Virus record (IMG/VR): IMGVR_UViG_3300033233_000110
Coordinates: 1 to 34,045 of that record
Source: a virus
Length of the DNA: 34,045 nucleotides
Reading direction: 5' to 3' (one strand)
Below the pieces are notes generated by a model that was given only the letters and a program-made list of their open reading frames with translations, made no database searches and had not been told where the DNA came from. This document shows positions 12,932 through 23,164 of the stretch, piece after piece. Within the stretch, counting starts at the first letter, position 1. The number at the start of each line of letters is the position of its first letter. The translations under genes were made by a program, and so were the position numbers.

Positions 12932-14245
12932 ATGAAACAAACTAAACCAACTTCTTATGGAGGGTTAAAAAATAAACATATTTTCTTCGTTTATGATGGC
13001 GGAGGATTATTTTTACAATTAGCTCTTCAATTAGGTAGAGATGGACATAAAGTATATTATTATACTCCTTTCTATGATGAGGAATTATGTTTTAGGCGAT
13101 ATGTTTTAGGTTATGGATTAGAAGAAATTGAAAAGCCATTGTATTTCTGGCGAGCTTTAATGAAATATCCAAAAGAGGAAGTGACTATAATGTTTCCTGA
13201 TGTGGGTAATGGCGATATGGCTTCCTTCTTAAAGAAACAAGGATATGCTGTATTTGCTGCTGGTGAAGGAGATATATTAGAAAATCACAGAGAACTATTG
13301 AGACAAAAAATGAAAGAAGTTGGTTTACCTGTTAATAATTATGTTCAAATCACAGGGTTAAATAATTTAAGAAATTATTTAAAACAACATAATAATAAAG
13401 TTGTTAAATTAGATATCTTTAGAAACGATCAAGAGAGTTTTAAGGCTTTAACTTATTCTGATGCTGAACCAATTTTGGATAAATTACAACTAAAATTTGG
13501 TCAATTAGCTGATGAATTTCCCTTCATTGTTGAGGATTTAATTGACGGTGATGAACCAGGTTTTGATATTATCTTTAATAAGACTGGTTATTTAACTCCT
13601 TATTTGTGGGGCTTTGAGGTTCACAAAGGACCATATTGCGGAATGTTAAGTGATAAATTACCTGAACCGCTTCAGTTAGTAGCTGATAAATTAAAACCAT
13701 TATTAACCAAATATGATTGGCGAAGTTTTATTTCTACTGAAGCAATGGTAAAAGATGGTAAACCTTATCTCATTGATATTTGTTCTCGTTCTCCTTATCC
13801 ATTAGGAGTTGGTTTTACTTTCTTATACGAAAATTATTCTGAAATTATTTATAAAGTAGCACGGGGATTACCAGTAACAATTAAACCAAGGGGTAAATAT
13901 ATGATTGTTTTACCATTAGAACAGAGTCCTGATACCGATATTCCATTATGGAGTAATGTTAAAGCACCGTTTATTGGAATGGTTAAAAAAGATAATAATT
14001 ATTATGGCGTGGCGTTATCCAGAGTAGCTAAAACTAATGATAATCAATATGTAGGATTACCTGGTTATAAAAACTATCTTAATGTGGTGGGAGTTGGTAA
14101 TAATCCAGATGTATTAGCTAAAGAGATAATGGATATTGCTGATAAATGTACAATTAATGGCGGGTCATTTAGTTATGATAGAGAGAGTTTTCAGGAAGCT
14201 ATTCAAAATATATCTAAATTTGCTCAAAAATATCTAAAGAAATAA
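12932..14245 (+). CDS. ATP-grasp ligase, PurD-like fold
   Basis: This 437-residue protein has the order of an ATP-grasp enzyme. The N-terminal part (about 15-115) resembles a Rossmann-like preATP-grasp domain (HIFFVYDGGGLFLQLALQLGRDGHKV). A central part includes VVKLDIF and FIVEDLIDGDEPGFDI, resembling the E..i.G.E.s.d strand of phosphoribosylamine-glycine ligase. Then come STEAMVKDGKPYLIDICSRSPYP (expected metal/ATP site; PurD has a comparable E.N.R region) and a C-terminal domain. Such enzymes join a carboxylate to an amine using ATP. True purine synthesis is not implied by the context, since it sits between virion and lysis genes. Substrate unknown; peptide, glycine or nucleotide modification are all possible. 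Confidence 0.72.
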   Translation: MKQTKPTSYGGLKNKHIFFVYDGGGLFLQLALQLGRDGHKVYYYTPFYDEELCFRRYVLGYGLEEIEKPLYFWRALMKYPKEEVTIMFPDVGNGDMASFLKKQGYAVFAAGEGDILENHRELLRQKMKEVGLPVNNYVQITGLNNLRNYLKQHNNKVVKLDIFRNDQESFKALTYSDAEPILDKLQLKFGQLADEFPFIVEDLIDGDEPGFDIIFNKTGYLTPYLWGFEVHKGPYCGMLSDKLPEPLQLVADKLKPLLTKYDWRSFISTEAMVKDGKPYLIDICSRSPYPLGVGFTFLYENYSEIIYKVARGLPVTIKPRGKYMIVLPLEQSPDTDIPLWSNVKAPFIGMVKKDNNYYGVALSRVAKTNDNQYVGLPGYKNYLNVVGVGNNPDVLAKEIMDIADKCTINGGSFSYDRESFQEAIQNISKFAQKYLKK

Positions 14246-14249
14246 TAAT

Positions 14250-14567
14250 ATGGACATAGAGATTTATAGAGTATTAATACAATATGGAGGCGGGGTGGCA
14301 ATAATTGTAGCACTTATTTTCTTATTTAAGGAACTAAATAACTTATTAAAATCAAAAAATAATAATCATATCAATGAAAGAATTGCTGAATTAGATGAAA
14401 GATTAACTAATAGTTTAGAGAAATTAGAAACTAATGATTTGTATCACGCACAATTACAGATTAATGAATTAAGAGGTGAAGTGGATGGAATTAGAAAGGA
14501 TTTAAAAATAATAACCAATAAAGTTATTCAGATTGAAACAATATTAAAAATGAAAAATTTGATGTAA
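14250..14567 (+). CDS. Single-span membrane protein with coiled coil
   Basis: The 105-residue protein has one hydrophobic helix at residues about 10-27 (LIQYGGGVAIIVALIFLF), followed by a long charged coiled coil (residues about 40-100, heptads such as ERIAELDERLTNSLEKLE and QLQINELRGEVDGI). This layout fits phage membrane accessory proteins near lysis genes, such as spanin-like, rI-like or XhlA-like proteins, but no specific family can be named. The lysis genes lie 3 kb downstream. Its ATG follows the ATP-grasp stop by four bases, so it is in the same transcript. Confidence 0.65.
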   Translation: MDIEIYRVLIQYGGGVAIIVALIFLFKELNNLLKSKNNNHINERIAELDERLTNSLEKLETNDLYHAQLQINELRGEVDGIRKDLKIITNKVIQIETILKMKNLM

Positions 14568-14571
14568 ATAT

Positions 14572-14600
14572 TTGTATTTTTTACAAAAGTGTGCTATAAT
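14572..14600 (+). promoter_or_regulatory. Promoter with extended -10, apparently leaderless
   Basis: TTGTAT (14572-14577), a 17-bp spacer and a perfect TATAAT (14595-14600) preceded by TGC, an extended -10. The next ATG is at 14608, where transcription would be expected to begin, so the mRNA would have no 5' leader. The 15-mer AAGTGTGCTATAATA is also present at the promoter at 27696. Confidence 0.75.
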
Positions 14601-14607
14601 ATATTAT

Positions 14608-14892
14608 ATGAAACGATTACCTGCTTTTAACTGGCTAAATGTAAAAACAGCTAATGAAAAACAGGTTGATGGTTTATATGAAAATGACTATCAATTGATT
14701 TTAATTGACCCCAGATTAGGTGACAAGAGATTAGTCAAAACAATTATTCACGAAATACTTCATTATCTCTCTGATACTTATCCGTCAGTAGTTTTAAAAA
14801 TGAAAGAAAAAGATGTTCAATATTATACGAACATCTTTTTTAATTTAATAAAAAAAGGTCGAACAAATGTTAGCACCTTTAAAATTATATAA
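14608..14892 (+). CDS. Small HExxH putative metalloprotease
   Basis: This 94-residue protein has the zinc-protease signature HEILH at about residues 50-54, within VKTIIHEILHYLSDTYP. Upstream, QLILIDPRLGDKRL supplies the strand usual before the active-site helix. It is short, resembling phage mini-metallopeptidases of the SprT/ImmA type. The third zinc ligand cannot be assigned with certainty. The ATG at 14608 is chosen because a strong promoter ends eight bases upstream; a longer TTG-started frame would begin inside the -35 box. It is three bases from the next gene. Role unknown: possibly a regulator-cleaving protease or a catalytically simple binding protein. Confidence 0.68.
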   Translation: MKRLPAFNWLNVKTANEKQVDGLYENDYQLILIDPRLGDKRLVKTIIHEILHYLSDTYPSVVLKMKEKDVQYYTNIFFNLIKKGRTNVSTFKII

Positions 14893-14895
14893 CTT

Positions 14896-16035
14896 ATGGA
14901 TGTTGAAGAACTAAGGGAATATCTTAAACATAATCCCCCACAGACATCTGGTGATTACCATAAAATCGCTTTAGAAACTGGTTATTCCGATGAGGCAATA
15001 AGATATCATTGTCGTCAGTTAGGTATTACAATAAGTAAAAATCAAGGAAAGGAGGTGGGCGAGATGGCTCACAAAGAAATGATTGACTACGATAAGCTTT
15101 CAAAAAGCTTATTGGACGCTGTCAAAAAGGATAGACCAGAAATTCATCTGCCTAAACAAAAAGCTTTGAAAAATGGCAAGCTTACTGAACAAGCTGTATT
15201 AGTTCTCTCTGATATTCACTATGGTAAGGTTAATGAGTTCTATGATACCAATACTAACAAGAGGACTATAACTTACAGCCCAGAAATCTTTACTGCTGAA
15301 CTTAACAGATTATTAGATGGAGTTTCAACCATCAATGAGTTGCTTCTTGGCGGTTATAACCTTGAAACTCTTAACATTTTAGCTGTTGGAGATTTAGTTG
15401 ATAACGAACTAATCTACAAAGGACAAAAGAAATTTGTAGAGGAAGGAGTTATAGCACAGGTTCTTGACCTTGTTTCTTATCTGAAAAAGATGACTATTGA
15501 ACTTTTAACTCTCTTCCCAAAAATAAGATGGGTTATAGTTGGTGGTAATCACGCCAGACTAACTTCTGGGGTAGAAGCTGATTGGGACTACAATAACTTT
15601 GATTATCTGGTTGGCAGAATTCTTCAATTAAGTTTTGAAGGACAAGACAGAGTGGAAGTAATAGTACCAGAATCTTGGTATTATGTTCATAAGATTTACA
15701 AATGGAGATATCTGATGCATCACGGCAATTATATCTATTCTTGGATGTCGCTTCCTTATTACGGCATTGTAAGACAATCCAAAGCAAGAGCTCTTGAAGT
15801 GCCTTATGATATTGAGATTATTGGACATTTCCATCCATCTCAAATATTACAAATTCCTACCAGTTCTCATTCCTTAACTATTGTTAATGGTTCTTGGATT
15901 AACAAAGATGAGTTCGGTTGGAAAAGGTTCGCTTCATTAAGTTCTGCTAAACAATTCTATTTTGGCGTTTCAGCCAAAAGACCAATGAGTTGGGGATTTC
16001 CGTTAGACCTAAGTAAGGAGGTGTCAAATGAGTAA
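14896..16035 (+). CDS. Calcineurin-like metallophosphoesterase with N-terminal HTH
   Basis: The 379-residue product shows the full metallophosphoesterase set: D106-I-H108, G165-D166...D169, G217-N218-H219, H275/H276 and G310-H311-F312-H313. These residues bind two metal ions and hydrolyse phosphoesters, in phages usually on nucleic acids or nucleotides. Residues 1-56 form an added helix-turn-helix (TSGDYHKIALETGYSDEAIRYHCRQLGI). An in-frame ATG at 15064 has a strong Shine-Dalgarno site, so a shorter enzyme lacking the HTH is probably made as well or instead. Codon choice here favours AAC and CTT/CTC more than in neighbouring virion genes. It is first in a row of predicted metalloproteins and overlaps the next gene by eight bases. 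Confidence 0.88.
   Translation: MDVEELREYLKHNPPQTSGDYHKIALETGYSDEAIRYHCRQLGITISKNQGKEVGEMAHKEMIDYDKLSKSLLDAVKKDRPEIHLPKQKALKNGKLTEQAVLVLSDIHYGKVNEFYDTNTNKRTITYSPEIFTAELNRLLDGVSTINELLLGGYNLETLNILAVGDLVDNELIYKGQKKFVEEGVIAQVLDLVSYLKKMTIELLTLFPKIRWVIVGGNHARLTSGVEADWDYNNFDYLVGRILQLSFEGQDRVEVIVPESWYYVHKIYKWRYLMHHGNYIYSWMSLPYYGIVRQSKARALEVPYDIEIIGHFHPSQILQIPTSSHSLTIVNGSWINKDEFGWKRFASLSSAKQFYFGVSAKRPMSWGFPLDLSKEVSNE
15051..15066 (+). promoter_or_regulatory. Internal Shine-Dalgarno site and in-frame start inside the phosphoesterase gene
   Basis: GGAGG at 15051-15055 in the context AAAGGAGGTG, then eight bases, then ATG at 15064, in frame with codon 57. The same arrangement precedes the genes at 16028, 16191 and 16357, whereas the upstream start at 14896 has no such site. 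A 323-residue product consisting of the catalytic domain is expected. Confidence 0.75.
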
Positions 16036-16204
16036 AATCAAGATTACGGCACAGTGTCCTTATTGTAAAAAAGTATTCAAATGGAAATGGCATAAAGATG
16101 AAAAAACTGGTGAGTTATATATCAAATGTCCTTATTGTGGAAAAGAGATTTTGCGTAAAGTAAATCTCGGTAAGAAAGGAGGTGATAACAATGGTCATCA
16201 TTAA
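16028..16204 (+). CDS. Zinc-ribbon protein, 58 aa
   Basis: Two CPYC knuckles about 26 residues apart (AQCPYCKKVFKW...IKCPYCGKEIL) make a classic four-cysteine zinc ribbon. The Lys/Trp-rich strands between them suggest nucleic-acid or protein binding. GGAGG lies seven bases before the ATG, which overlaps the preceding stop (ATGAGTAA). The 3' end overlaps the next zinc ribbon by 14 bases, and the two resemble each other closely, indicating tandem duplication. Confidence 0.75.
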   Translation: MSKIKITAQCPYCKKVFKWKWHKDEKTGELYIKCPYCGKEILRKVNLGKKGGDNNGHH

Positions 16205-16391
16205 ATGTCCTTACTGCGGAACAAACTTTAAGATGGAATGGGAGTATGATGAAAAAGAACAGGAATTGGTTGTAAGATGCCCTACCTGTGAAAGAATAAT
16301 TTTAAGAACACAAGGCTTTAGTAAGTTAGAAACAAATAAGAAAGGAGGTGGACACGATGGTCACCAAAGAGATGGTGACGGCAATCGTTGA
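16191..16391 (+). CDS. Zinc-ribbon protein, paralogue of the preceding one
   Basis: The product (66 residues) starts MVIIKCPYCGTNFKMEWEYDEK and has a second pair CPTC, spaced as in the preceding zinc ribbon, so four Cys can bind one zinc. The ATG at 16191 is chosen because GGAGG lies eight bases upstream; a GTG at 16182 is inside that ribosome-binding site. The tail (GGGHDGHQRDGDGNR) overlaps the start of the next gene and is likely disordered; it ends with TGA. A binding or recruiting role with the neighbouring protease and nuclease genes is possible but unproven. Confidence 0.75.
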   Translation: MVIIKCPYCGTNFKMEWEYDEKEQELVVRCPTCERIILRTQGFSKLETNKKGGGHDGHQRDGDGNR

Positions 16392-16881
16392 GAAGTTCCA
16401 ACCACTAATGGGATTAAATGACTGGCTAATTACTGTTGACATTGTAGATGAACATTTTCTTCAAATCATTACTAAAACTAATAATTCTATTATCTTTGGA
16501 GCTAACAGGATTAATACTTCAACCAAGATTTCAAACATTTACATTTGGGAAAATGCTGATGTAAACATAATCAATACTTCTCTCGAATGGATAGTTCTCC
16601 ACGAGATGGCTCACATTATAATTCAACCATTAAAAGAACAGTTTGAGAAAACAATTGAAGGATTAGACAGAGATGACCCTTTAAGAATTCTATTAGAAGA
16701 AGATTTTGGAGACATTGAAGAACAAATAGTTAATGAAATTGCTAAAATCATTTTGAGATTAAGCCAACAAAAACTCCTATCTGATGCTGATAACTTTGCC
16801 CTATGGGCAGTTGTTCAATCATTAGGAGGGCAAAATGAGCCACAAGAGAAAGAAGAAAACGGCGAAGAAAAGAGTTCCTAA
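16357..16881 (+). CDS. HExxH zinc-metalloprotease-like protein
   Basis: The 174-residue product has HEMAH at about residue 86 (WIVLHEMAHIIIQPL) and a downstream EEQIVNEIAKIIL helix whose Glu could be the third zinc ligand, as in gluzincins. A beta-rich N-terminal half (LMGLNDWLITVDIVDEH, IFGANRINTSTKISNIYIWE) matches phage metallopeptidase-like proteins of unknown target. The start at ATG 16357 is supported by GGAGG eight bases upstream; the longer GTG start lies inside that site. The last 47 bases overlap the HNH gene. This is the second HExxH protein within 2 kb. Confidence 0.78.
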   Translation: MVTKEMVTAIVEKFQPLMGLNDWLITVDIVDEHFLQIITKTNNSIIFGANRINTSTKISNIYIWENADVNIINTSLEWIVLHEMAHIIIQPLKEQFEKTIEGLDRDDPLRILLEEDFGDIEEQIVNEIAKIILRLSQQKLLSDADNFALWAVVQSLGGQNEPQEKEENGEEKSS

Positions 16882-17086
16882 ACAAACCAAACAAGAAGTC
16901 CTTAATGAATATCATCACAAATGCTACTTTTGTGGTTCGGAAGAAAATGTGGAATTACACCATATAATTTTTAGACGAATTGGTGGAACAAATGAACCAG
17001 ATAATCTTATTCCTCTCTGTGATTCTTGTCATAAAAAATTTCATTCCCTTGTTGATCCAATTATTGATTTTCTAATCCATAAGTAA
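16835..17086 (+). CDS. HNH endonuclease
   Basis: The product has 83 residues. C30-x-x-C33, L41-H42-H43, N57 and C62-x-x-C65-H66...H70 form a complete HNH (beta-beta-alpha metal) nuclease with a zinc-binding pair on each side (CYFCG...ELHHI...NLIPLCDSCHKKFH). The N-terminal 20 residues are strongly basic and would contact DNA. HNH proteins often nick DNA during packaging or act as homing nucleases, but the packaging genes lie 9 kb downstream here. AGGAGG precedes the ATG. This is the last gene before a 480-base stretch without protein genes. Confidence 0.88.
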   Translation: MSHKRKKKTAKKRVPKQTKQEVLNEYHHKCYFCGSEENVELHHIIFRRIGGTNEPDNLIPLCDSCHKKFHSLVDPIIDFLIHK

Positions 17087-17097
17087 TAAGGGTTCTC

Positions 17098-17126
17098 GGT
17101 AGGTCTCCCGCTTCAAAAGACCTACC
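17098..17126 (+). other. Perfect 9-bp hairpin after the HNH gene
   Basis: GGTAGGTCT (17098-17106) pairs with AGACCTACC (17118-17126) across an 11-base loop. It begins 11 bases after the HNH stop. No T-run follows, so an intrinsic terminator is not clear; it may protect or process the 3' end of the upstream mRNA, or begin the structured RNA region. Confidence 0.6.
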
Positions 17127-17162
17127 ACACTTGTTAATCAGAATAAAAATGGTTAACATCTC

Positions 17163-17469
17163 GCTCTTTGTAGTTTATCAGGGGTGTAGTGCAACGGACA
17201 GCACACAGACCATCCTGCCTGTAATGAAGGTTCGAATCCTTCCACCCCTGTTATTGACTATAAAGAGCGGGGTGGAGTTATCTCCTGTCACGGCTTCAAG
17301 CTGTAACCCCGCAAGAAACCCTGTATCCGCACAGGAACACAAACGATTCCAGTCCAATGCTACTGGTGACTGGATAGCCACAACCTTGGCGATACCTGAA
17401 ATATGGATGGTAGCGGCAGGAGATGACTGCCTTTAATGGCAAGGACGAGTAGCAGTCCGTCATCTCCTG
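17163..17469 (+). ncRNA. Multi-domain structured RNA region containing a tRNA-like fold
   Basis: No convincing protein gene lies between 17087 and 17566. Instead a chain of helices is visible. A 12-bp helix (17163-17174 with 17257-17268, one G-U pair) encloses the tRNA-like domain. A three-way element follows, closed by GCGGGGT/ACCCCGC (17267-17273 with 17306-17312), holding GGAG/CTCC and ACGGC/GCTGT hairpins. Next come CCTGT/ACAGG (17320-17335) and TCCAGTC/GACTGGA (17348-17374). Last is an 11-bp helix CAGGAGATGAC/GTCATCTCCTG (17417-17469) enclosing two perfect 4-bp hairpins with only one unpaired linker base. This density is far above that of the coding DNA around it. Family unknown; bacterial Y RNAs also join a tRNA-like module to a long stem, a loose analogy only. 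Confidence 0.6.
17180..17250 (+). tRNA. tRNA-like sequence with a degenerate anticodon arm
   Basis: Acceptor AGGGGTG pairs perfectly with CACCCCT, followed by discriminator G (17250). The D-arm is GTGC/GCAC with an AACGGACA loop. The T-arm is GAAGG-TTCGAAT-CCTTC. The body resembles glutamine-type tRNAs (GGGGTGTAGTG start). The anticodon arm is abnormal: the best pairing is CAGAC with GCCTG, with an A-C mismatch and a 6-base loop CATCCT, so no standard anticodon can be assigned, and the total of 71 bases is short. CCA is not encoded. It could be a decayed tRNA, a tRNA mimic or an RNase P processing signal. Confidence 0.6.
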
Positions 17470-17496
17470 ATAATTCTTTTATGAGTAACGGGACAC

Positions 17497-17524
17497 TTGA
17501 TTTTTTTTCAAAGAGGAGTAAAAT
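17497..17524 (+). promoter_or_regulatory. Promoter of the shared GAGTAtAAT type, before the holin-like gene
   Basis: TTGATT (17497-17502), 16 bp, TAAAAT (17519-17524). The T-rich spacer and the GAG just before the -10 match the promoters at 18264, 19801 and 20031; this is the weakest match of the four. Confidence 0.5.
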
Positions 17525-17531
17525 AAATATA

Positions 17532-17545
17532 TAGTCGAAAGACTA
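17532..17545 (+). other. Small hairpin with GAAA tetraloop in the leader
   Basis: TAGTC-GAAA-GACTA: five base pairs closed by a GNRA-type loop, just downstream of the promoter and 21 bases before the holin-like ATG. It may stabilise the mRNA 5' end. Confidence 0.5.
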
Positions 17546-17566
17546 AAACATTAAACAAATAAAACT

Positions 17567-17791
17567 ATGGATATATTTGTTGGTGCCATCGTTTCATTAA
17601 TAGTTGAATTAATAAAGAAAATAACGGGTGCTGAAGATTGGTTGGCTACTTTGATTCTTATTATAGTATCAATAGTAGCTGCTGGATTATATAGCTATTT
17701 ATCAGCAGTTGGAGTATGGGATAAAGTAGTTCCCATCCTAGTTAGTGCTGCTGGTATATATAACTTATTTATCCAGAAATTCGAGAAATAA
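17567..17791 (+). CDS. Probable holin
   Basis: This 74-residue protein has two hydrophobic stretches, TLILIIVSIVAAGLYSYL (about 28-45) and VVPILVSAAGIYNLFI (about 54-69), after an amphipathic N-terminus (FVGAIVSLIVELIKKI), and ends with a short charged tail (QKFEK). Size and layout fit small phage holins, which permeabilise the inner membrane at lysis. The next gene is a lysozyme-like enzyme, supporting a lysis pair. The start context is AAAACTATG. The downstream frame is +1 relative to this gene and stays open across its 3' end. Confidence 0.7.
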   Translation: MDIFVGAIVSLIVELIKKITGAEDWLATLILIIVSIVAAGLYSYLSAVGVWDKVVPILVSAAGIYNLFIQKFEK

Positions 17792-17795
17792 AGCC

Positions 17796-18245
17796 TTGTT
17801 TACTAGATTCAGGAAGGCGTTGCTATGGGTGCTGGTAGGGGCTACTTCTGGATTATCTATTTTTATTCCTTGGAACCTCTCAACTCGGCTAACAACTGAG
17901 ACGAACCCAGGCCAGTATCAATACCAAAAGCCTTCTGACAATTTAGCTACTTGGATAGATAAACTGGAAGAATACGAATGTAAAGATTGTCCGATTGGTT
18001 TTAGCAGAATAGACAGTAATGGTCTGCGTTCTTATGGTTGCTTACAATTTCAAAAAGAAACCTTCTTACTTAACCTTAAAAAATACTATCCAGAAACTTA
18101 TAATAATATTCAAGGAAACGAGTGGCAGAACTTAATTTACGATTGCGATTTCCAAAAGCAATTAGCTTATAAAATGATTAAAGACAATCCAGATAATATT
18201 TGGCACTGGGCTCTGTCTATAAAAAGAGGACTGGGAAAACCGTAA
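17796..18245 (+). CDS. Membrane-anchored lysozyme/transglycosylase-like lysis enzyme
   Basis: About 149 residues. A basic N-terminus and a hydrophobic segment (ALLWVLVGATSGLSIFI) form a signal anchor. The remaining region has WIDKLEEYE, a candidate catalytic Glu, followed by SYGCLQFQKETF, like the S.G..Q motif of SLT-type transglycosylases, and a final WHWALSIKRGLGK. There are also paired Cys (CKDC). The start is uncertain: the frame has no ATG before the catalytic region. TTG at 17796, four bases after the holin stop, is my choice; GTG at 17745 inside the holin gene, or TTG at 17820, are alternatives. A +1 frameshift fusing it to the holin is also possible. Confidence 0.65.
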   Translation: MFTRFRKALLWVLVGATSGLSIFIPWNLSTRLTTETNPGQYQYQKPSDNLATWIDKLEEYECKDCPIGFSRIDSNGLRSYGCLQFQKETFLLNLKKYYPETYNNIQGNEWQNLIYDCDFQKQLAYKMIKDNPDNIWHWALSIKRGLGKP

Positions 18246-21991: not shown

Positions 21992-22537
21992 ATGGATAAA
22001 AAATATAAATTAACAAATCAAACTCGAATAGTTAATGGACATACCCTTCACCGTATTCAAGCGTTAAAAGATTTTGAAAATGTTAAAAGAGGAGATTTAG
22101 GTGGTTGGATAGAGAGAGAAGATAATCTATCTCAAAAAGGTAATTGCTGGGTGTATGATAATGCTATAGTGTATGGGAATGCTCAGATTGATGATAATGC
22201 TTGGGTCTCTGGCAGTGCTCGAGTGTATGGTGATGCTCGAGTGTATGGCGATGCGTGGGTTTATCATTATGCTCAGATTTTTGATAATGCTAATATTGGC
22301 GGTAATGCTTGGGTATATGGTGATGCTTGGATTGGTGGTGATCTTAAACTCATTGGGGGGCGTTTTTATCATACTCACCTCAAATTAGAACCAATAGAGA
22401 AGATAAAAAATGATCAAATTTACGAAACTTTATGTAGTGATCCACAATTAGGCGAAGAAGAAAAACCAAAAGGTAAAAAAGTAAAAATTAAATTACCAGA
22501 AGGGACTATAATAGAAGGCGAGTTAATTGAAGATTAA
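21992..22537 (+). CDS. Left-handed beta-helix (YdcK-like) repeat protein
   Basis: The 181-residue product starts with a head (KYKLTNQTRIVNGHTLHRIQALKDFENVKRGDLGGWIE) and then has about ten hexapeptide-like coils with D/G-NA-x-V/I spacing (DNAIVYGNAQIDDNAWVSG...). The head plus NLSQKGNCWVYDNA is the signature of the YdcK-like family, whose members fold as a left-handed beta-helix and are of unknown biochemistry. A C-terminal segment (GKKVKIKLPEGTIIEGELIED) is a small beta tail. The following gene is a clear paralogue. An adhesion, scaffold or host-interaction role is possible. Confidence 0.75.
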   Translation: MDKKYKLTNQTRIVNGHTLHRIQALKDFENVKRGDLGGWIEREDNLSQKGNCWVYDNAIVYGNAQIDDNAWVSGSARVYGDARVYGDAWVYHYAQIFDNANIGGNAWVYGDAWIGGDLKLIGGRFYHTHLKLEPIEKIKNDQIYETLCSDPQLGEEEKPKGKKVKIKLPEGTIIEGELIED

Positions 22538-22549
22538 TTTTAATTAATT

Positions 22550-23164
22550 ATGTATATGAAATATAAATTAACAAAACAAACCCGAATAGTTGATGAACAT
22601 ATTCTTCATCGTGTTCAAGCATTGAAGAATTTTGGTGGTGTTAAGAAAGGAGATTTGGGTGGTTGGATAGAGACAGAAGATAATCTTTCGCAAGATGGTA
22701 ATGCGTGGGTTAGAGATAATGCTTGTGTGAGTGAGAATGCCCGTGTTTTTGGTGATGCTCAAATTTATGATAATGCACAAATTTCTGGTCACGCTTATAT
22801 TTGGGGTAATGCACAGGTGTGTGATAATGCTCGTGTTTTTGGTTATGCTCAAATTAGAGATGATGCTCAGGTGTTTGGTAGTGCTTGGGTTTTTGATACT
22901 GCTCGTGTCTATGATAATGCTCGTGTTTCTGGTAATGCCTGGGTTTTTGGCACTGCTCAAATTGGAGGCAATTTGAAAATTATTGGTGGAGAATTTTATC
23001 ATACTCAAGATAAGTCAGCAATTGTGGAAAAAATAAATAACGATAATGAGTTTGTAACTTTGTGTAGTAATCCTAAGTTTGCTGAAGAAGAGTCGAAAGG
23101 TAAAAAAGTAAAAATTAAATTAGCAGAAGGGATTATAATAGAGGGTGAGTTAATCGAAGATTAA
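22550..23164 (+). CDS. Left-handed beta-helix (YdcK-like) protein, tandem paralogue
   Basis: This 204-residue product shares the head (KYKLTKQTRIVDEHILHRVQALKNFGGVKKGDLGGWIE), the repeat helix and the C-terminal GKKVKIKLAEGIIIEGELIED with the previous gene but has more coils (roughly thirteen). DNA repeats of 18 bp (GATAATGCTCGTGTTTTTGG-like) are visible inside. Two in-frame ATGs occur six bases apart (22550 and 22556); comparison with the paralogue slightly favours the second. Tandem duplication with different coil numbers suggests active length change of the helix. Confidence 0.75.
   Translation: MYMKYKLTKQTRIVDEHILHRVQALKNFGGVKKGDLGGWIETEDNLSQDGNAWVRDNACVSENARVFGDAQIYDNAQISGHAYIWGNAQVCDNARVFGYAQIRDDAQVFGSAWVFDTARVYDNARVSGNAWVFGTAQIGGNLKIIGGEFYHTQDKSAIVEKINNDNEFVTLCSNPKFAEEESKGKKVKIKLAEGIIIEGELIED

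Follow-up and report, generated by a model that had tools for sequence, protein, structure and literature searches.

The DNA analysed here, referred to as the window, is a whole IMG/VR virus record (IMGVR_UViG_3300033233_000110; 34,045 nt, 32.7% GC) that carries the portal, large terminase, major head protein and DnaD-like genes of a tailed phage. All of its main genes lie on the + strand, and described phages encode only distant relatives of its proteins. Between a small HNH endonuclease gene and two genes with presumed roles in lysis lies a stretch of about 390 nt that is predicted to fold into a large structured RNA. The same arrangement is found in a second IMG/VR contig, IMGVR_UViG_3300033233_000094 (L002), which we located through the metallophosphatase/exonuclease gene four genes upstream. 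The locus is laid out as follows.

16835..17086, + strand: small HNH endonuclease gene (Pfam HNH, 2.7e-10), upstream of the RNA and kept beside it in L002
17087..~17480, + strand: whole structured RNA, about 390 nt; the ends are approximate, from the first conserved base past the HNH stop to just beyond the 3' three-way junction
17567..17791, + strand: 74-aa hydrophobic membrane protein, presumed holin, downstream of the RNA; 91% identity in L002, in the same place
17745..18245, + strand: presumed endolysin with an N-terminal anchor, downstream of the RNA; 86% identity in L002 and in a further contig, L115

The 74-aa protein has no family match and is presumed to be a holin by its size and position; its neighbour has no Pfam match and probably acts as an endolysin. 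The latter seemingly starts at a TTG at ~17796, right after the holin stop (17789-17810), and L115 has a similar TTG context (TTGCGTACTAAATTCAGG); the GTG open reading frame listed from 17745 is a longer version that overlaps the holin. Elsewhere in the window, two paralogous proteins with short repeats (GNAWVYGDA-like) are encoded side by side at 21992-23164, the second of which matches phrog_5070. A 437-aa protein encoded at 12932-14245 resembles an ATP-grasp carboxylate ligase, which would be unusual in a small tailed phage, and has no PHROG or Pfam match.

The RNA region stands out from the rest of the phage in both stability and composition. The region 17150-17480 has a minimum free energy of -126.2 kcal/mol, compared with an average of -93.3 for its shuffled versions (z = -6.0), none of which, out of 100, folded as stably; the region is the most stable among all 330-nt tiles of the phage, and its GC content is 0.47 compared with 0.33 for the genome. 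A sequence-only reading had placed the element at 17163-17469, which proved too short: the conserved RNA runs from 17087 to ~17480, and the 5' addition brings in two hairpins and a closing helix (17090-17094/17305-17309). That reading had also described three further hairpin domains in tandem beyond a tRNA-like core; the extra domains are present, but their number was understated, the consensus fold having 14 helices. The parts of the RNA are listed below.

17090..17094 (GGGTT) with 17305-17309 (AACCC), + strand: closing helix of the 5' domain in the RNAalifold consensus, 5 pairs with one U-A/U-G change; it encloses H1, H2, P1 (with the tRNA-like domain), H3 and H4
17098..17126, + strand: hairpin H1, 9 bp (GGTAGGTCT/AGACCTACC), z -5.5, invariant in L002
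17133..17157, + strand: hairpin H2 of the consensus fold, GTTAA(TC)/(GG)TTAAC, invariant in L002
17158..17175, + strand: 5' strand of P1, the stem with the tRNA-like domain at its tip; 18 pairs, with two compensatory and two one-sided changes relative to L002
17179..17250, + strand: tRNA-like domain, found by both Rfam and ARAGORN, not in L002
17180-17186/17243-17249, + strand: acceptor stem, AGGGGTG/CACCCCT, 7/7 pairs
17189-17204, + strand: D arm, stem GTGC/GCAC, 4/4 pairs
17206-17221 (loop 17211-17216), + strand: defective anticodon arm, CAGAC/GCCTG
17226-17242, + strand: T arm, stem GAAGG/CCTTC, 5/5 pairs, with the canonical TTCGAAT loop
17256..17273, + strand: 3' strand of P1, pairing with 17158-17175; its end may pair elsewhere
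17275-17284, + strand: hairpin H3, one compensatory pair relative to L002
17290-17304, + strand: hairpin H4, ACGGCT-TCA-AGCTGT, invariant in L002
17327..17416, + strand: central domain, closed by CCGC/GCGG
17358..17364 (TGCTACT) with the T3 loop, 17448-17454 (AGTAGCA), + strand: kissing-loop candidate (inverted repeat I7), 7 bp in the window and 6 bp in L002
17417..17469, + strand: 3' three-way junction T1/T2/T3, 19/19 pairs kept in L002, z -6.1

The tRNA-like domain matches the Rfam tRNA model RF00005 at 17180-17250 (+) with 50.3 bits (E = 4.3e-8 over the whole window), above the gathering threshold of 29. ARAGORN also calls the element, as 'tRNA-???' with anticodon (tc) and no nameable anticodon, and finds no second tRNA in the phage, leaving this as the only tRNA-like element in the window. 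The perfect acceptor, D and T arms and the broken anticodon arm that had been read from the letters are confirmed. In the ARAGORN reading, the stem of the anticodon arm is interrupted by an A.C mismatch, and its loop, CATCCT, is 6 nt long and lacks U33; the arm falls short of the 5 bp, 7-nt loop and U33 of a decoding-competent arm, and the element is no normal tRNA. Its isotype gave partial matches only, to phage tRNA-Gln, -Trp and -Arg. Pairing of the anticodon loop (ACCATCC) with a conserved GGATGGT at 17405-17411 is possible over 7 bp, and we do not claim it, as 9% of shuffled loops do equally well. A copy of a host tRNA at an attP site is likewise disfavoured, with the D and acceptor arms whole and no integrase among the scanned open reading frames.

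Beneath this domain, P1 pairs 17158-17175 with 17256-17273 over at most 18 bp, of which the inner 11 bp (GCTCTTTGTAG/CTATAAAGAGC) are unambiguous, so that the 12-bp stem of the sequence-only reading was a fair description. The segment of P1 and tRNA folds with z = -5.65. P1 of L002 has no tRNA and forms a fully paired 20-bp hairpin capped by AAAC. The comparison shows P1 to be a peripheral stem whose tip accepts cargo, which is a short loop in L002 and a non-decoding tRNA-like domain in the window.

Apart from the tRNA, the RNA at L002:2963-3290 is ~85% identical to that of the window, and it occupies the same place between the HNH gene and the presumed holin/endolysin pair. Every non-tRNA helix is kept. 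Because L002 retains the stem and all other domains without the tRNA, we regard the tRNA as an accessory module rather than the defining domain, and the idea that a tRNA mimic forms the core of the element could not be upheld. The family has two known members, one of them with the tRNA, and two such sequences would fit a gain as well as a loss. The RNA belongs to a module (~14250-18245) common to both phages, with 79-95% protein identity in a tblastn search of the window open reading frames, that comprises a membrane protein, the exonuclease, a zinc ribbon protein, an HExxH protein, the HNH protein, the RNA and the presumed holin and endolysin. Outside it, the same search found two other genes shared with L002, and nearly everything else, the terminase included, had no match. 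Since the remaining genes are mostly unrelated between the two phages, we conclude that the module was kept as a unit; the RNA, as a component of this mosaic module, was either exchanged or retained with it, and its place before the presumed lysis genes is conserved.

To assess the fold, we aligned the two RNAs over 17087 to ~17480 with the tRNA removed. The consensus contains 89 pairs in 14 helices, all 89 of which form in both sequences, and 12 pairs are changed on both sides. Sliding the register by 1-3 columns reduced pairing to 34-49% with no double change, a control that is generous in that these two sequences also produced the consensus. The 3' junction has support of its own: each sequence folded separately gives the same three-way junction, and its 19 pairs survive 18 substitutions, with 8 double compensatory changes. 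None of 200,000 simulations matched this result, the maximum being 17 pairs kept. Read on the + strand, the one-sided changes go through G.U pairs, an indication that this strand is the RNA. The comparison of the two sequences shows a multidomain fold whose helices beyond the tRNA-like core are conserved in the one relative.

The most conserved stretch, ACAAACGATTCCAGyCCAATGCTACTGrTGACTGGATAGCCACAA, lies in the central domain. We propose that a loop-loop pseudoknot between 17358-17364 and 17448-17454 docks the 3' junction to the centre of the RNA. The chance of such a loop-loop complement over all loop pairs is 0.009, and the T3 loop is kept as GTAGCA in L002 although the T3 stem has changed. 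An RNAalifold helix uses the same central bases and would compete with the kissing loop. We also considered, and rejected, a protein-coding explanation for the conservation of the region. Gaps between the two RNAs are mostly of 1 or 2 bases, and the L002 RNA has stops in all forward frames; indels that are not multiples of three, together with these stops, mark the element as noncoding.

We searched for further members of the family. A blastn search against phages and plasmids gave no relative of the RNA, three patterns drawn from its sequence recovered only L002 in IMG/VR, and a tRNA-core pattern had no match there; the other ~100 loci in IMG/VR hit by a 16-mer pattern are chance matches, as are those of the second pattern. 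Scans with neighbouring proteins (exonuclease, TerL, endolysin and HExxH protein) yielded L003, L111 and L115, which are single-gene relatives without the RNA, and protein scans of genome collections gave no relative. The family would appear, from these patterns, to be either rare in IMG/VR or diverged past exact matching. In one of the single-gene relatives, the shared exonuclease gene is followed a few genes later by another very stable intergenic element (L003:4186-4302; ~-52 kcal/mol in 130 nt), whose outer helix is long (GCGGGCGGGAT/ATCCCGCC); we saw no resemblance to the window RNA.

Among tRNA, tmRNA, YrlA, GOLLD and ROOL, the Rfam search returned tRNA only, and no other Rfam family came near threshold in the window RNA or the L002 RNA, which supports its description as an unclassified structured RNA. 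YrlA RNAs carry a tRNA mimic whose acceptor stem continues into a long helix, and the window RNA is similar in that its tRNA-like acceptor runs into a long stem. Unlike YrlA, however, it has many extra domains and a dispensable mimic. No Y-RNA covariance model matched at E<=5 in 17000-17600, and the TROVE domain of Ro60/Rsr (PF05731) is absent from the 34-kb record in a search that detected its control, although the host could still encode one. The comparison with YrlA made on first inspection therefore fails, with no YrlA match, no TROVE protein in the record and no mimic in L002. In tmRNA, a partial tRNA mimic is joined to a pseudoknotted RNA, and a long helix takes the place of the anticodon arm. 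The long helix of the window RNA instead extends the acceptor end, and neither ARAGORN nor Rfam finds a tmRNA or a tRNA-like domain paired with a tag reading frame.

GOLLD is a large phage or prophage RNA of unknown function, with many examples >800 nt, that sometimes has a phage tRNA embedded in a linker (PMC12286853). Like GOLLD, the window RNA is phage-encoded, large and structured, with a covalently embedded tRNA-like piece. It differs in length (390 nt versus >800) and in that its tRNA is non-decoding and sits on a helix tip rather than in a disordered linker. ROOL is a structured phage or prophage RNA found near tRNAs, also of unknown function (PMC12286853); the window RNA has another size and structure and no tRNA island. 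Neither family matched at the gathering threshold or at E<=5 in the window, nor at E<=10 in L002. GOLLD is the nearest precedent, and the window RNA might work similarly without being a member. The tRNA-Other of Bacillus cereus is described as a pseudo-tRNA that does not serve translation and is linked to a mobile element (PMC3399842); in that account it is free-standing, whereas the tRNA-like piece here is embedded in a larger conserved RNA.

Our leading explanation, to which we give a probability of roughly 45%, is that the locus encodes a new family of free-standing phage noncoding RNAs of ~320-390 nt, in which the tRNA-like piece is a recognition or processing handle. It draws on the stability of the fold, the presence in L002 of the same flanks and helices, the compensatory pairs, the loop complement, the noncoding indels and the GOLLD precedent. 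The RNA lies within a mosaic gene module, with the HNH gene on one side and the presumed lysis genes on the other, and would fold into a 5' multibranch domain (H1, H2, P1, H3 and H4), a central domain of high conservation and the 3' three-way junction. It would be released as a discrete molecule and act as a scaffold or ribonucleoprotein RNA during infection. The tRNA-like domain on P1 may offer a handle to tRNA-recognizing host factors (RNase P/Z, the CCA enzyme or EF-Tu) that would process or stabilize the RNA, or may sequester such a factor. Weighing against this explanation, only two members were found, the position before the lysis genes would also fit a cis-acting leader, and the intact tRNA elbow could mean merely a recent insertion.

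The last point bears on a reading of the tRNA part alone, compatible with either view of the core RNA, in which a phage tRNA gene landed at the P1 tip by accident and is now degenerating, with no role in the RNA. We consider this doubtful, if still a serious contender. The tRNA is missing from the sole relative, its defects are restricted to the decoding arm, a tRNA in an apical loop would be structurally harmless, and short TTAT repeats flank it. Its acceptor, D and T arms have nevertheless stayed intact, as have the loop bases that are usually conserved, and a phage with no other tRNA offers no obvious local tRNA array as a source.

A somewhat less likely alternative is that the whole element is a cis-acting leader of the lysis cassette, a structured 5' untranslated region of the holin/endolysin mRNA that would time lysis by attenuation, antitermination or regulated cleavage. 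The 3' end of P1, GCGGGGT (17267-17273), can form an alternative 7-bp helix with ACCCCGC (17306-17312), as read directly in the sequence, and this helix is also present in L002 with one U-A to U-G change. Such a strand could switch between its two partners in a leader, with the tRNA-like piece as an RNase P/Z site and the 20-bp hairpin of L002 as an RNase III site. The conserved, mutually exclusive pairing of 17267-17273, the shared travel of the RNA and the presumed holin and endolysin in two otherwise different phages, and the placement of all main genes on one strand are consistent with this view. However, a U-rich tract follows the 3' junction (strong in L002, GTTTTTATTATTTTT; weak in the window) and is followed in both phages by a promoter-like site, of a kind no commoner than chance, which suggests that the RNA stops short of the lysis genes; the module also carries along the HNH and protease-like genes that lie upstream.

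We think it improbable, though worth stating, that the RNA is a modular phage ribonucleoprotein RNA with P1 as a plug-in site, where a decoding-dead tRNA would serve as bait for tRNA-recognizing host or defence enzymes (anticodon nucleases or RNase P, for example), in what would be nature's equivalent of the engineered 'tRNA scaffold'. Very unlikely is a genuine but odd tRNA (e.g., a frameshifting or suppressor tRNA) freed by RNase P and RNase Z: the Rfam score favours it, whereas the mismatched stem and short loop lacking U33, the pairing of C-1 (17179) with the discriminator G73 (17250), which extends the acceptor to 8 bp, the lack of an encoded CCA and the proximity of the P1 base to both cleavage sites argue against it. 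Least of all do we expect a bacterial Y RNA of the YrlA type, with a Ro-binding stem and a tRNA mimic, for which the shared topology is outweighed by the missing Rfam match and TROVE protein, the loss of the mimic in L002 and further domains that Y RNAs lack.

GOLLD and ROOL are widespread and unexplained phage RNAs, and the window RNA adds a compact, uncatalogued one. Its tRNA part is optional, and selection keeps the central and 3' domains. Two natural versions that differ by a tRNA at one tip make the purpose of an embedded tRNA testable by a tip swap.
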